Part shown: piece after piece, positions 2,548 through 17,304 of the stretch
How positions within the stretch are numbered: position 1 is the stretch's first letter
Layout of the letters: every line of letters starts with the position of its first letter
Position numbers and translations under genes: made by a program
Notes under the pieces: model-generated
Database searches by the model: none
The model's input: only the letters and a program-made list of their open reading frames with translations
What the model was told of the DNA's origin: nothing
Origin: a virus
Strand: one strand, 5' to 3'
Virus record (IMG/VR): IMGVR_UViG_3300042291_000236
Span: 1-34,312 of that record
Length of the DNA: 34,312 bases

Positions 2548-3140
2548 TGCCTTGGGTAGATTTAGCAAATAATCAAGCAGTTAGTTTTATTAATTTATGG
2601 GATGCTTCCGAGAATACTAAAATATTTGCTTGGAGAATTCCTGTACCTACTACGCAAGAATGTGTAACCAAGTCGGAGGCTTTAACTTATATATTTTTAG
2701 ACAATTCTTTTCCTTCTTATTCCGCGAAAGCATCAAATCAACTTATTGAAAAAGAGGATATAGTACAAGCTAATGGAGTATTTTATAGCCAAGCAAGCGG
2801 AACTTATCCATTGATAGGAACTTCCGTTTCTGCTACTGGTAGAGTATGGAATTTTACAGGTTCAACTATTTATCTATTTATAGCTTTTAATAGTCAAGGT
2901 ATAAATAGCGGAACAATAAATAACGACTCAATGACAATATTTCCTTTATCTCCTATATCCGTAACAGGAACAATAACGGGATTTAATCAATTATTTTTAG
3001 GAGGATATTACACTATTTTAAATAATCAATCTTTTAATATAAATATCATAAAAAACGATGGTCTTGGGGCTGGTAGCCGAGTTTATTTAGCTTACTCTTT
3101 TAATACTTCTGGATTTCCTCAACAACCTGTATCAATTTAA
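2547..3140 (+). CDS. Hypothetical virion-associated adhesin-like protein
   Basis: This 197-residue protein starts in a TAATG overlap with the fibre stop, so it is translationally coupled to the fibre. It is rich in Ser, Thr, Asn and aromatic residues, with no signal peptide or membrane segment that I can see. The pattern suggests a beta-rich tail accessory or receptor-binding protein, but I recognise no domain. Its last codons (QPVSI) reappear as residues 5-9 of the next gene, and the DNA behind them is a 16-nt near-identical repeat. This hints at duplication or loss of a continuous C-terminal part. The call rests mainly on position between the fibre and the lysis genes. Confidence 0.6.
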   Translation: MPWVDLANNQAVSFINLWDASENTKIFAWRIPVPTTQECVTKSEALTYIFLDNSFPSYSAKASNQLIEKEDIVQANGVFYSQASGTYPLIGTSVSATGRVWNFTGSTIYLFIAFNSQGINSGTINNDSMTIFPLSPISVTGTITGFNQLFLGGYYTILNNQSFNINIIKNDGLGAGSRVYLAYSFNTSGFPQQPVSI

Positions 3141-6935: not shown

Positions 6936-7139
6936 TTATAAACTATTTTTAATTCCTTCTTTGAATTTCTCTAAGTATAATACAGCATCCATAAGTTCTT
7001 GCTGTAAATGCTCAGCCCATTCTTTGGTGTTTAAGTCAGTCCTGTCAAGATTAGTTCCATATTTCGTAAAGCCAATGTTAGCTCTATCTTTATACTTAGT
7101 AATCACAGACTCGACTATAGTGTCATACTTATTCTCCAT
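6936..7139 (-). CDS. Small MazG-like/EXXED-helix phage protein
   Basis: 67 residues with the pattern KYGTNLDRTDLNTKEWAEH followed by QQELMDAVLYLEK. This resembles short phage proteins related to the all-alpha NTP pyrophosphohydrolases, in which an E-E-x-x-D helix binds Mg2+. Here only the QELMDA helix is seen and the protein is too short for a complete two-motif enzyme, so catalysis is doubtful. The start codon lies within the end of the preceding gene (11-nt overlap), which suggests coupling. Confidence 0.55.
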   Translation of the reverse strand: MENKYDTIVESVITKYKDRANIGFTKYGTNLDRTDLNTKEWAEHLQQELMDAVLYLEKFKEGIKNSL

Positions 7140-7341
7140 TACCTTTATATTTTCTTACTTGTTCTTTAAGTTGTGCTCTCCATTTGATGTCTACTGTACC
7201 ATCATTTAAGATGTCTTCAACTAACTTAATAGTTTCAGCAGTTACAAACTTGCTTTCCTTAGGAACTACAGTAACCTTAACTTCTTTCTTAGTAGTCTTA
7301 GTTACATTTTCTGCCTTGTTGTCTAATTCTAAATTTTCCAT
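7129..7341 (-). CDS. Small hypothetical protein
   Basis: 70 residues. A polar, Lys/Thr/Glu-rich and probably disordered N-terminus (to about residue 30) is followed by a charged helical C-terminus (IKLVEDILNDGTVDIKW...). No domain is recognised. It overlaps the next gene's start by 11 nt and begins after a leader with AAACAACAATT, which supports the chosen ATG. Confidence 0.55.
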   Translation of the reverse strand: MENLELDNKAENVTKTTKKEVKVTVVPKESKFVTAETIKLVEDILNDGTVDIKWRAQLKEQVRKYKGNGE

Positions 7342-7350
7342 AATTGTTGT

Positions 7351-7443
7351 TTAGCGTCCTTGACCACGATATGCTTTAGGTCTTGGACTATGTTTGTTAT
7401 AAGATTTCTTTGCCTTACCTTCTTTACGCTTCCCGAAACTCAC
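7351..7443 (-). CDS. 30-residue basic peptide with GTG start
   Basis: A short frame, starting GTG, encodes MSFGKRKEGKAKKSYNK..., ending PKAYRGQGR, with ten Lys/Arg in 30 residues. It overlaps the last 20 nt of the nuclease gene in another frame, and its stop lies just before the leader of the next gene, so it exactly fills what would otherwise be an 82-nt gap. The high basic charge suggests nucleic acid binding. The evidence is position plus composition, so confidence is modest. Confidence 0.4.
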   Translation of the reverse strand: MSFGKRKEGKAKKSYNKHSPRPKAYRGQGR

Positions 7444-7795
7444 CTTTATACTCGTCCCAGATGCTGATTTTGCTTTCGCCATTGTCTAAAAATATTGTTA
7501 AATTAATTGTTCCGTCTGATACTTGTTGACATACAATAGATGTGCCACCGCACATACCTAAGTGAGTTAAGAACTCTATCTGTGATACACTTAACCTATC
7601 ACCTATAGCTTTTATCTCACAAGCAATGAACTGACCATAGTTCTTATGGTAACCAATGATGTCAGGCAAGCCTTTCTTACCAATGAAAGACCTTCCCTTA
7701 ACTGCTAGGTTATTATTCCTCCATACTTCATAACCTAAACTATCTAAATATTCTAGCATCATCTTGGTTAAGTCACTTGCTGTTTTGTATGTCAT
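7424..7795 (-). CDS. VRR-NUC domain nuclease (PD-(D/E)XK fold)
   Basis: 123 residues, nearly all of it the domain. The catalytic pattern is visible as GLPDIIGY (Asp45) and ACEIKA (Glu60, Lys62), followed by DRLSVSQIEFL with a conserved Gln at about 72. VRR-NUC proteins cut structured DNA; in phages stand-alone versions are thought to serve as recombination or Holliday-junction-type nucleases. Its place in the early operon with helicase, initiator and recombination genes fits that role. Exact substrate is not visible. Confidence 0.85.
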   Translation of the reverse strand: MTYKTASDLTKMMLEYLDSLGYEVWRNNNLAVKGRSFIGKKGLPDIIGYHKNYGQFIACEIKAIGDRLSVSQIEFLTHLGMCGGTSIVCQQVSDGTINLTIFLDNGESKISIWDEYKGEFREA

Positions 7796-8681: not shown

Positions 8682-10019
8682 TTAAATTTTATAGTCTTCA
8701 AATGTGGTTGTTTCTCCAATAAATCTAATAGGTATATTACCAGTCTTGCCATGTCTGTTCTTCTCTACCTTAACGATAACTAAGTCATCAGGATGGTATT
8801 CCTTTCCACCTATTTCTACAGGTTCTTTCATTTCGTAGTAAGATGGTCGCATAAGCATAATAACAATGTCAGCGTCTTGCTCAATACTACCTGATTCTCT
8901 AAGATCAGACAACATTGGTAGTTTATCAGCCCTTTCCTCAACCTTTCTAGATAACTGAGATAAAGCAATAATTGGCACTTCCAACTCTTTGGCTAAGGCT
9001 TTAAGGCTTCTGCTTATTAAACTTACTTCCTGCTCTCGGTTTTGGTTTGATTTGCCTTGTCCACTCATAAGCTGTAGATAGTCTAGGAATATAACCTTAA
9101 TACCATACTTCTGCTTTAGAATAGTAGCCTTAGCTCTGAGTTGTGAGATACTGATTCCGCCAGTATCCTCTATGTAGATGGGTGCTGTGATTATCTTGTC
9201 ATCGGTCTTTAAAAGTAGCTTACGTTCATAGTCATTTAAATTATTCGTTCTAAGGCGTTTTAAGGGCACTTGACTAGTTATTGACTCTAACCTTTCAACA
9301 AGCTGTTCGGAGCTCATTTCGAGGCTAAAAATAGCCGTAGGAACGCTATTTAGGATAGCTAAGTGATAAACACTTGAAAGCATCATTGCTGTCTTACCTG
9401 CACCAGGTCTTGCAGCTATAATACATAGGTCGGGTTTACACCATCCTGCTATGGTTTGGTTTAGCTCTTGGAATCCTGTATTAAATCCTAAAAGTTCACC
9501 ATTACTTGCTAAGTCCCTAGCAAAGTTGATAGCCATAACTACGTCAGTTATGCTTTTTTCATGGATATTACCAAACTCTTGTAAAGCTATAAGTTGACTA
9601 TTTAGCTCAGAAAGTAAATCTATAGCTTGACTATCGTTGTCTAAACAACTATTCTCAGCTATTCTAAGTACTTTATATGCTTCACGCTTCTTATACATCT
9701 CAATAACAATCTCGATATGGGTGTTTATGTGTGCTGTTGATGTTACATTATCAGTTAACTTAGATAGGTAAAAAGCTCCACCAACATCTTGTATGTCCTT
9801 ATCTTGGGAAAGTTTTTGAGCTACGGTAGTAAGGTCTATAGATATATTACTATCATACATTTCCTTAATAGCGTTAAAGATTTTTTGGTGCTTTAGATCG
9901 TAGAATATGTCAGTTTTTAGATGACCTATAACCAATGGGATAGTCCTTTTGTCTAAAAGCAATGCCCCAAGTATGTTAGATTCAATATCTAAGGCTTTAG
10001 GTAGGTTTATAGCTATCAT
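8682..10019 (-). CDS. dnaB: Replicative DNA helicase, DnaB family
   Basis: 445 residues, normal length. The N-terminal DnaB domain (about 8-110, beginning ALDIESNILGALLLD) is followed by the RecA-like helicase domain: Walker A ARPGAGKT (203-210), the FSLEMSSEQL motif, Walker B VIFLDYLQLMSG (309-320), then SQLSRKVEERADKLP and LRESGSIEQDADIV. It unwinds DNA ahead of the fork as a hexamer. It overlaps the small protein upstream by 4 nt (ATGA), which in turn is next to the initiator. Initiator and helicase thus lie in one coupled block, with no polymerase or primase gene in the window, so host enzymes are probably recruited. Confidence 0.95.
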   Translation of the reverse strand: MIAINLPKALDIESNILGALLLDKRTIPLVIGHLKTDIFYDLKHQKIFNAIKEMYDSNISIDLTTVAQKLSQDKDIQDVGGAFYLSKLTDNVTSTAHINTHIEIVIEMYKKREAYKVLRIAENSCLDNDSQAIDLLSELNSQLIALQEFGNIHEKSITDVVMAINFARDLASNGELLGFNTGFQELNQTIAGWCKPDLCIIAARPGAGKTAMMLSSVYHLAILNSVPTAIFSLEMSSEQLVERLESITSQVPLKRLRTNNLNDYERKLLLKTDDKIITAPIYIEDTGGISISQLRAKATILKQKYGIKVIFLDYLQLMSGQGKSNQNREQEVSLISRSLKALAKELEVPIIALSQLSRKVEERADKLPMLSDLRESGSIEQDADIVIMLMRPSYYEMKEPVEIGGKEYHPDDLVIVKVEKNRHGKTGNIPIRFIGETTTFEDYKI

Positions 10020-10228
10020 AGATTTTCTATTTGGTATTTAACTTTTAACCAATAATCATTATAGCTAGGATTAGGTCCTAAAGTATAGTCATATCTTTTA
10101 GTTGCTTCTAATAGTTCATCTACTGCTATTAATGCACAATTTTTTGCTTCAAATGGAGATAATAAATTACATTTTGAATGATAATAATACTTATTAACTA
10201 ATTCTTCTGCTTTTTGTTGTGGTGTCAT
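10016..10228 (-). CDS. Small conserved-type hypothetical between initiator and helicase
   Basis: 70 residues, beginning MTPQQKAEELVNKYYYH and containing AKNCALIAVDELLEA and YWLKVKYQIENL. The pattern is like short all-helical proteins common in phages of Bacteroidota. It overlaps the helicase by 4 nt and the initiator stop by 1 nt. The location might suggest a helicase-loading accessory role, but no motif shows this. Confidence 0.6.
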   Translation of the reverse strand: MTPQQKAEELVNKYYYHSKCNLLSPFEAKNCALIAVDELLEATKRYDYTLGPNPSYNDYWLKVKYQIENL

Positions 10229-10863
10229 TATTTAAGTTTTATTTGTGTAGTTATTTTGTTAGTTGGTACGTTTGATTGCGTATTAAATTTGCTATTATTC
10301 CTTTTCCAAGTTCTTACAGTAGCCTTCCAATCTTTCATAATTCCAGAGTTAAGTTTCCATCCTCTAGCTTCATAGTGATCACAGAAATATTCACCATCTA
10401 AAACAAAGTCTATTTCTTTAGCATAACTACTAACCTCTAAAGGCGTTGGCTTAATAAATGTCTTATTATTGTTAATTGTATTGTTGGGTAAAGATTCTTT
10501 ACCGTCTGAGGTAAACTTTTTTGACCCCTTAGGTAAACTTTCTTTACCAACGGTAAAGTGGTCATCAGCAATACCAAAACTCCTATAATCATCTATAGCA
10601 TCCTTAAAAGTACCTGCACATCTAAGATGGTTAGTCTTCTCATGCTTAGTTACCAATCCTTTTAAAATGAGACCCTTAATAATGTTTAAAATAGATTGCT
10701 TTGACAAGTCTAAATCATCTGCCATAGTTTCTCTACTCATGTAACACCAATGAGAATCGTTGTTTTGCATACGCAGTATAGTGTCTAATACACAATACTC
10801 GTTACAAGATAAATGAAAAGCCTTCCTTACTGGATGGATAATCGTTGTATAAAATTGAGCCAT
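10228..10863 (-). CDS. Winged-helix replication initiator / replisome organiser (DnaD-like)
   Basis: 211 residues. Residues 15-75 form a winged helix-turn-helix (LSCNEYCVLDTIL, SRETMADDLDLSKQSILNIIKGLILKGLV). A variable linker (about 95-140) follows, then a C-terminal module with the pattern YARGWKLNSGIMKDWKATVRTWKRN (here with preceding EYFCDHYE) that is typical of phage replication proteins. The linker is encoded by the iteron-like repeats at 10487-10558, as the lambda origin lies in the O gene. The start codon directly follows the T-tract of a terminator-like hairpin, so expression is probably controlled in the leader. It presumably binds the origin and helps load DnaB. Confidence 0.75.
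   Translation of the reverse strand: MAQFYTTIIHPVRKAFHLSCNEYCVLDTILRMQNNDSHWCYMSRETMADDLDLSKQSILNIIKGLILKGLVTKHEKTNHLRCAGTFKDAIDDYRSFGIADDHFTVGKESLPKGSKKFTSDGKESLPNNTINNNKTFIKPTPLEVSSYAKEIDFVLDGEYFCDHYEARGWKLNSGIMKDWKATVRTWKRNNSKFNTQSNVPTNKITTQIKLK
10487..10558. other. Candidate replication origin: six GGTAAA iteron-like motifs inside the initiator gene
   Basis: GGTAAA or its complement occurs at 10487, 10498(c), 10510, 10532, 10543(c) and 10552, in two similar groups of three. The motif falls in two different reading frames of the gene (Phe-Thr in two copies, Leu-Pro in two), so it is not explained by a repeated peptide. An AT-rich tract (about 10452-10486, coding for an Asn-rich stretch) adjoins it, like a DNA-unwinding element. 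The arrangement resembles the lambda ori within O. Confidence 0.6.
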
Positions 10864-10922
10864 AAAAATAAAAAAGCCCTATCAAATTCCCCCCAGTCGG
10901 ATTGGGGGTTCATATCAAGGGC
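10864..10922 (-). terminator. Terminator-like hairpin immediately before the initiator start codon
   Basis: On the minus strand an outer GCCCT/AGGGC stem (10922-10918 with 10880-10876) encloses an internal loop. Inside it is a strong CCCCCA/TGGGGG stem (10908-10903 with 10895-10890) with the loop ATCCGAC. TTTTTTATTTTT follows and the ATG begins with the very next base. The position suggests an attenuator of the initiator gene, not a plain intergenic terminator. Confidence 0.7.
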
Positions 10923-10953
10923 AATAAGTTCTTAATGAGTATCCGACACTCAT
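10915..10953 (-). other. Leader hairpin A with complementary loop, containing a possible 12-codon leader peptide
   Basis: ATGAGT (10953-10948) pairs with ACTCAT (10940-10935) around the 7-nt loop GTCGGAT, which is the exact complement of the loop of the downstream terminator hairpin. The hairpin's first ATG opens a frame MSVGYSLRTYCP ending with TGA at 10917-10915, right after the 5' strand of the outer terminator stem. A translating ribosome would therefore cover that strand. Translation of so short a frame is speculative. Confidence 0.5.
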
Positions 10954-10955
10954 GA

Positions 10956-10963
10956 CAAATATA
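10956..10963 (-). promoter_or_regulatory. Candidate -7 box (TATATTTG) for the initiator leader
   Basis: An exact TAnnTTTG match on the minus strand, 2 nt before hairpin A. Transcription would start at about 10950-10953, so the two hairpins would form the very 5' end of the initiator mRNA. No clear -33 TTG is seen. Confidence 0.55.
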
Positions 10964-11176
10964 CTACTTTGTCTTAACTATCCTAAAAATAACATCTCTT
11001 TCATTGTGCTTAAATCTACGTTTTAATAACGGATTAAGTGACTTCTTTATTGCGTCTTGTGTGATCCTTGTATTCCTTGCTGCATGAGCTAAAGACTTAA
11101 ACAATACTTCACTTTTGTCGTCAACATAAATCATCCTCACTGGTACTGAGTTCTCTAATCCTGCAATCTCCATCAT
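10964..11176 (-). CDS. Small NUMOD1-like DNA-binding protein
   Basis: 70 residues. After a hydrophobic strand (VPVRMIYVD) comes a pattern like NUMOD1/IENR1 modules: FKSLAHAARNTRITQDAIKKSLN, a helix-turn-helix, then a closing strand DVIFRIVK. Such modules usually sit beside GIY-YIG or HNH homing endonucleases, but no nuclease domain is present here. Its start overlaps the stop of the tiny membrane peptide upstream (ATGATGG), showing coupling. It could be a degenerate homing-endonuclease remnant or a small regulator next to the initiator leader. Confidence 0.55.
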   Translation of the reverse strand: MMEIAGLENSVPVRMIYVDDKSEVLFKSLAHAARNTRITQDAIKKSLNPLLKRRFKHNERDVIFRIVKTK

Positions 11177-17233: not shown

Positions 17234-17304
17234 TCCGATTTAGTTCAATGGTAGAACAATGGTCTCCAAAACCATAGATATTAGTTCGAGTCTAATAGTC
17301 GGTG
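17234..17304 (+). tRNA. tRNA-Trp (anticodon CCA)
   Basis: A 71-nt cloverleaf folds by eye: D stem GTTC/GAAC, anticodon stem ATGGT/ACCAT with loop CTCCAAA, T stem ATTAG/CTAAT with loop TTCGAGT. The acceptor stem has six pairs and a T-T mismatch at the first position, with discriminator G73 as expected for Trp. The 3' CCA is not encoded (CA only). Confidence 0.85.

Follow-up and report, generated by a model that had tools for sequence, protein, structure and literature searches.

Plasmid attenuators of the pT181 and pIP501 type control a replication initiator by means of a leader with a terminator at its end. They depend on recognition between kissing hairpins, with an interior loop beneath the kissing hairpin, and the partner is an antisense RNA transcribed separately, from the opposite strand. 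Immunity conferred by the CI RNA of phage P4 and by the c4 antisense RNA of phages P1 and P7 involves RNA pairing and termination within a leader; c4 RNA is the Rfam family RF01695. Kissing loops are also found in ColE1, in which RNA I and RNA II control an RNA primer, and in TAR/TAR*, an artificial kissing pair. In intrinsic terminators and riboswitch-type attenuators, a GC-containing stem and, behind it, a U-tract lie between a promoter and a gene. The c4 RNA has been reported from Proteobacteria and phages that infect them (PMC2864571), and engineered loop-loop attenuators also require an interior loop below the kissing hairpin (PMC3753616).

Here we describe a leader in the virus record IMGVR_UViG_3300042291_000236 (34,312 nt; the whole of this stretch was analysed and is called the window), which lies on the minus strand at positions 10963-10864. 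Its anatomy resembles that of plasmid replication-control leaders, as the original prediction had suggested, with a terminator-like stem between promoter and rep gene, loop-loop recognition and, as in pT181 and pIP501, an interior loop under the kissing hairpin. Unlike those attenuators, the phage device carries both partners in one transcript, one of them on the terminator. By analogy with P4 CI and c4, a phage leader-derived RNA may pair with a transcript of the same type and stop phage genes (replication genes, in the case of P4), but the phage device is a single compact promoter-hairpin-terminator unit. Its loops resemble those of ColE1 RNA I/RNA II and TAR/TAR* in that 6-7 nt are paired at every base (e.g., CCGTAC/GTACGG and GTCGGAT/ATCCGAC), whereas ColE1 regulates a primer and the phage device precedes an initiator mRNA. 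In contrast to riboswitch-type attenuators, the device has a compound terminator, the loop of its second hairpin kisses the 5'-terminal hairpin, and the family is without an invariant sequence that resembles a ligand pocket.

None of 4227 Rfam covariance models matched the leader, and RF01695 gave no match in the window and 11 loci at E values of up to 1. Such a device had been proposed to be undescribed for phages of Bacteroidota, and we likewise found none for these phages in the open-access literature. Both kissing partners lie in one leader, at its very 5' end and on its terminator, and this arrangement appears to be new, as do its scale and its phylum. The plus strand between 10292 and 12330 contains no TAnnTTTG and thus no consensus antisense promoter, with a non-consensus promoter being possible. 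Because the 5' ends of the rep genes differ among families, there is no conserved antisense promoter in that region.

A structured leader abuts the initiator gene of a phage replication operon

The leader and its neighboring genes comprise the following features.

8682-10019, minus strand: DnaB-like replicative helicase, same operon (PHROG 19, E=2e-105; Pfam DnaB/DnaB_C)
10228-10863, minus strand: replication initiator / helicase-loader-like protein, 211 aa, HTH_36-like (PHROG, Pfam)
10864-10875, minus strand: T-tract TTTTTTATTTTT, predicted end of a terminated leader RNA of about 80-88 nt
10876-10880, minus strand: 3' arm of the outer (terminator) stem, AGGGC, paired with GCCCT
10890-10908, minus strand: hairpin B, CCCCCA/TGGGGG with loop ATCCGAC, inside the terminator (sequence, fold, covariation)
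10896-10902, minus strand: loop B, ATCCGAC, kissing partner 2, reverse complement of loop A
10918-10922, minus strand: 5' arm of the outer (terminator) stem, GCCCT (pairs kept in all; U-A/U-G alternation)
10923-10934, minus strand: A/T-rich unpaired linker TAAGAACTTATT, conserved and near-invariant in A2
10935-10953, minus strand: hairpin A, stem ATGAGT/ACTCAT, loop GTCGGAT (sequence, fold, stem covariation)
10941-10947, minus strand: loop A, GTCGGAT, kissing partner 1, 100% complementary to loop B across relatives
10950-10951, minus strand: predicted transcription start at the foot of hairpin A, from the 4-5 nt spacing in F. johnsoniae (PMC6847099)
10956-10963, minus strand: promoter -7 element TATATTTG (sequence; Bacteroidota primary sigma consensus TAnnTTTG)
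10964-11176, minus strand: small upstream ORF, 70 aa, whose stop codon TAG abuts the -7 box; not in all relatives

The box, hairpins A and B, outer stem, T-tract and ATG were all found where they had been predicted, correct to the base, and the initiator ATG at 10863 follows the T-tract TTTTTTATTTTT without a gap. The perfect complementarity proposed for the two 7-nt loops also holds: GTCGGAT and ATCCGAC are exact reverse complements in the window, and the loop 7-mer occurs within it only at the two leader sites. RNAfold returned a minimum free energy structure that consists of hairpins A and B and the outer stem. However, the fold alone is not significant for the window leader (z = -1.6, RNAfold), and TAnnTTTG occurs in the window at the frequency expected by chance (49 versus 51.5 expected). 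The single-sequence case for the window leader is suggestive only, and the proof is comparative.

The gene behind the leader had been called a replication initiator, an assignment borne out by PHROG and Pfam, which indicate a protein of the replication initiator or helicase-loader type with DnaB encoded next. The 211-aa product matches PHROG 270/428 (replication initiation) and PHROG 186 (DnaD-like loader), with an HTH_36 match that falls just under the cut-off. We saw no integrase among the window proteins tested, which suggests that classical lysogenic immunity may not apply.

The loops of hairpins A and B covary among relatives

We compared 51 contigs (L001-L051) that were picked by similarity of the initiator protein only, with matches covering the initiator start. 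A complete leader was present in 46 of the 51, and its loops were perfect reverse complements in every one of the 46, which include several loop types. The upstream flanks of relatives show identities of 0.46-0.97, and the T-tract pattern TTTT-A-TTTT is conserved among close relatives. The leader of L034 is truncated, and four contigs (L002, L003, L018 and L019) have none, which indicates that the leader is dispensable. In L018 and L019, the upstream ORF continues straight into the initiator; in L002 and L003, a deletion that is possibly an assembly artefact fuses the upstream ORF to the T-tract.

Pattern scans raised the total to 191 copies that represent 62 distinct leaders, in which 13 maximal complementary words coincide with the terminal loops of hairpins A and B; the T-tract, whose complementarity to the A-linker confounds the comparison of cis with trans pairing, was excluded from this test. 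The same B stem, CTACCA/TGGTAG, carries the loops ATCCGAC, ATGCGAC, ATACGAC and AAACGAC, which are matched by the A loops GTCGGAT, GTCGCAT, GTCGTAT and GTCGTTT, respectively. Within the gap-poor subset of leaders, the kiss was 100% paired and showed a covariation of 0.239, as compared with 0.042 for shuffled pairings (0/500 reached the true value) and at most 0.049 for slid pairings, and double changes were also observed in stems A and B. In the outer stem, U-A and U-G pairs alternate and pairs are kept in all leaders, which suggests that selection acts on the RNA rather than on the DNA. The search for paired changes that had been put forward as a check on the kissing model therefore revealed loops that always change together, and independent divergence was not found among the relatives. 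On this comparative evidence, covariation demonstrates the structure of the leader and its kissing interaction, and the leader is a genuine RNA family rather than a single-sequence curiosity.

Template-free scanning uncovers a wider family

Our covariance model, R1, represents the main subfamily only and missed most of the distant members, and for this reason we wrote a scanner that uses no sequence template. It searches for a box, hairpin A, hairpin B, at least six complementary loop bases, an enclosing stem and a T-rich tail. The scanner returned 197 matches versus 0 in 3.5 Mb of reversed sequence, and 118 of 131 distinct matches scored at least 34, as compared with a best score of 33 in a reversed control of 5.26 Mb. 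After contigs of more distant initiators had been added, 113 of 190 loci contained the device; these loci are a mixed set, in which some had been known before. When devices from whole contigs are included, the set amounts to 119 distinct devices; their kiss words number 67, of which 59 are not nested in one another. Because the scanner itself requires six complementary bases, the unbiased support for kissing comes from the protein-selected set and the empty control. In these sequences, the device stands at the start of the replication operon in hundreds of phages of Bacteroidota-type bacteria, with dozens of matched loop pairs.

Complementarity had been claimed to stop at the loop edges, and this feature extends to the wider family: the base immediately beyond the kiss forms a pair in only 20/119 and 13/119 devices. 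None of the kiss words is self-complementary, and non-cognate kiss words seldom cross-pair (72/3422 with at least 6 complementary bases). One major class combines a 14-nt A loop, N6-A-C-A-Y-Y-A-U-A, with a 10-nt B loop, A-N-G-U-N6', so that the loops contain extra unpaired bases besides the kiss. Among 33 devices of this class, 262 of 264 kiss cells are Watson-Crick and 2 are G-U; variation affects six of the eight kiss positions and leaves the A-C/G-U pairs constant. Linkers of the AAGGAATTATT type in distant members resemble the window linker.

Beside hairpin B, devices contain constant internal-loop motifs, TGAA/GGAT or AGTA/GAA, the latter of which resembles the bulged-G consensus. The constancy of these motifs suggests a fixed three-dimensional shape. 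The arrangement TTAGTAG-B-CGAAA in L074, L304 and L357 is akin to the bulged-G (sarcin-ricin, AGUA/GAA) motif, and the TGAA-B-GGAT class possibly forms tandem G-A pairs.

BLASTN with the window leader found no match among GenBank phages, and a concatenated query of several leader types led to the cultured Cellulophaga phage phi18:3, in which the device lies ahead of gp007-gp006 and gp006 is a DnaD-like helicase loader. In a scan of 21 records, including phi18:3 and the window, most of those with a convincing match contain a single device, which usually lies at the replication operon. We found no convincing leader match in a plasmid collection. A scan of a genome collection gave a single match, on a Firmicutes contig, which is apparently due to chance.

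A promoter box and a predicted terminator frame the hairpins

The -7 element of Bacteroidota promoters is TAnnTTTG, which in F. johnsoniae lies 4-5 nt from the transcription start and is accompanied by little signal at -33 (PMC6847099). TAnnTTTG, with variable nn, occurs in every complete leader of the protein-selected set. In a scan without the box condition that covered contigs to L286, the box was found in 57/59 high-scoring devices against a background of 2.7%, mostly 3-8 nt ahead of stem A with a mode of 5; nine boxes overlap stem A as the scanner extends the stem. An upstream -33 TTTG motif was not evident on inspection by eye. From the spacing of 3-8 nt, transcription is expected to begin at the foot of hairpin A, and a start downstream of hairpin A, which would have undermined the original prediction, is contradicted by the box spacing in those 57/59 devices, with the start position itself being predicted. 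With a spacing of 4-5 nt, the window transcript would start at about 10951-10950, in which case the RNA may lack the two outermost A-U pairs of stem A. Judging from the promoter type and from phi18:3, we infer that the leaders belong to phages of the phylum Bacteroidota.

At the other end, the outer stem of the window is only 5 bp long and contains a large internal loop, which makes it a weak terminator alone, and the window terminator was missed by a simple terminator scan because it is compound. Distant members have outer stems of 8-14 bp followed by T-runs, which strengthens, in terms of anatomy, the claim that the outer stem is a terminator. The median energy of the terminator hairpins is -17.7 kcal/mol. 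Termination presumably occurs in vivo, and the terminated leader RNA should be about 80-100 nt long.

Leaders behave as exchangeable cassettes

The genes that follow the leader encode initiators of at least five kinds: the unrelated HTH_36, Lin1244_N, DUF1376 and DUF6291 kinds and the MSGW-type. Furthermore, the initiator of the window is 96% identical to that of L005 and the upstream sequence is 95% identical, whereas the two leaders share only 61% identity and differ in type. The contigs L228, L327, L329, L352, L366 and L380 each carry two devices, whose kiss words differ. By sequence comparison, the leader is exchanged as a cassette unit.

In L228, which has devices at about 7122-7230 (+) and at 3023, the word GTCGGAT precedes the initiator and the word GTACCAG precedes a NUMOD4/HNH-like endonuclease ORF. 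An endonuclease ORF lies exactly between leader and initiator in other contigs, of the HNH type in L099, L160 and L197 and of the GIY-YIG type in L203 and L174; these inserted ORFs occupy the ATG position of the leader, with the initiator directly after.

A proposed kissing attenuator that may act in trans

We propose, with about even confidence, that the device is a transcription attenuator of the replication operon that contains a kissing complex, and that the terminated leader most likely serves as a negative, type-specific RNA in trans. Transcription would start at the foot of hairpin A and continue through the linker into the compound terminator, which carries hairpin B at its tip. Loops A and B pair fully over 6-8 nt, and kissing would set how frequently the terminator forms, i.e., the balance of termination versus read-through. 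Most transcripts would end just before the initiator ATG, such that initiator and helicase are expressed from read-through only. Because the terminated leader carries both loops, this RNA, capped by its 5' hairpin, could pair with leaders of its own type while these are being transcribed from other genome copies, and it would most likely function as a negative, copy-number-sensing immunity RNA specific to its type. We infer that kissing switches initiator expression; it may either favor or prevent formation of the outer stem, and action in trans is presumed here.

A role in trans immunity, comparable to plasmid incompatibility and to the RNA immunity of P4 and P1, would explain the diversity of loop pairs and the swapping of leader cassettes. 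Intramolecular kissing alone also results in covariation, so that the case for trans action is built on analogy, the swapping of cassettes and the diversity of types. Somewhat more tentatively, leaders could be both target and inhibitor, with the terminated leader silencing the replication operon of all genomes in the cell that share its loop type, in which case the loop types would be immunity (incompatibility) groups under diversifying selection in Bacteroidota phages. Across 21 disjoint close pairs, kissing bases and stem A show 0.023 and 0.021 changes per base, respectively, and this lack of acceleration leaves faster diversification of specificity unsupported in close pairs.

The same rates are in line with a switch that works in cis only, which we consider rather unlikely. 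According to this explanation, loops A and B kiss within one transcript, and a phage or host protein (in the way that Rop/Rom recognizes the shape of ColE1 kissing complexes) or the transcription machinery reads the resulting complex, which times the replication genes; the loops would covary merely since they must fit each other. Both partners do lie in one RNA in all devices, and the constant scaffolds (the ACA-Y-Y-ATA portion of loop A, TGAA/GGAT and AGTA/GAA) look like one fixed three-dimensional fold. However, a cis-only switch by itself leaves about 60 specificities unexplained, and it does not account for wholesale type swaps between near-identical genomes or for contigs with two devices of distinct words. 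Control of translation, by which the structure and the U-tract at the AUG would govern ribosome access instead of transcription, is improbable in our estimation. In the window and its close relatives, 11-12 nt separate the end of the structure from the AUG, which follows the T-tract immediately, and secondary structure is known to tune initiation in F. johnsoniae (PMC6847099), but the start codon of distant members lies 18-52 nt past the outer stem while the order of stem and then T-tract stays constant, and the U-rich stretch ahead of the window initiator differs from the A-rich starts of neighboring genes.

Two further explanations do not involve control of the mRNA. The near-constant association with the replication operon, together with the AT-rich linker and T-tract, could point to a DNA element of the phage replication origin, with strand-exposed hairpins or an AT-rich unwinding region by the initiator gene; the G-U pairs of the outer stem, the presence of the T-tract on one strand only, the strict position just behind a promoter box and the occurrence of devices before HNH and NUMOD genes make this very improbable. 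We give still less credence to a self-assembling structural RNA that acts elsewhere in the phage life cycle in the manner of phi29 pRNA, whose molecules assemble into a ring through complementary loops. An RNA with two complementary, non-palindromic loops could in principle form chains, and the kiss words fit such a scheme in that none is self-complementary, but the device accompanies replication genes, with a terminator before their ATG, and not packaging genes, and the large terminase encoded in the window is ordinary.

If the proposed trans action is true, the leaders would constitute a system of dozens of types that governs immunity and copy number through RNA, which would explain which related phages can share one cell. 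The family, which is missing from Rfam, stands before the replication genes of a large and poorly understood group of phages, and one device belongs to Cellulophaga phage phi18:3, which is in culture together with its host. In addition, about 60 kissing pairs tied to terminators form a natural library that is useful for orthogonal RNA regulators.

Additional observations in the window and in other contigs

In the window, a tRNA gene (17234-17304, plus strand; Rfam RF00005) separates the early minus-strand genes from the terminase region, and the product of 7424-7795 (minus strand) weakly matches phage endonuclease and Holliday junction resolvase families (PHROG 93, 5702). Contig L230 contains a model match at 1450-1555 with 9-nt complementarity (TGCCACCAC/GTGGTGGCA) followed by an ORF; it has no clear hairpin A, was excluded from the device set for that reason, and is possibly a loop-linear relative. 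Longer devices with a kiss of 8-10 nt occur in L321/L322 (2631), L347 (437) and L348 (2536). A very stable hairpin B (AAGCCACAG/TTGTGGCTT) itself stands just before the T-run in these devices, which may represent a second architecture with B as the terminator.
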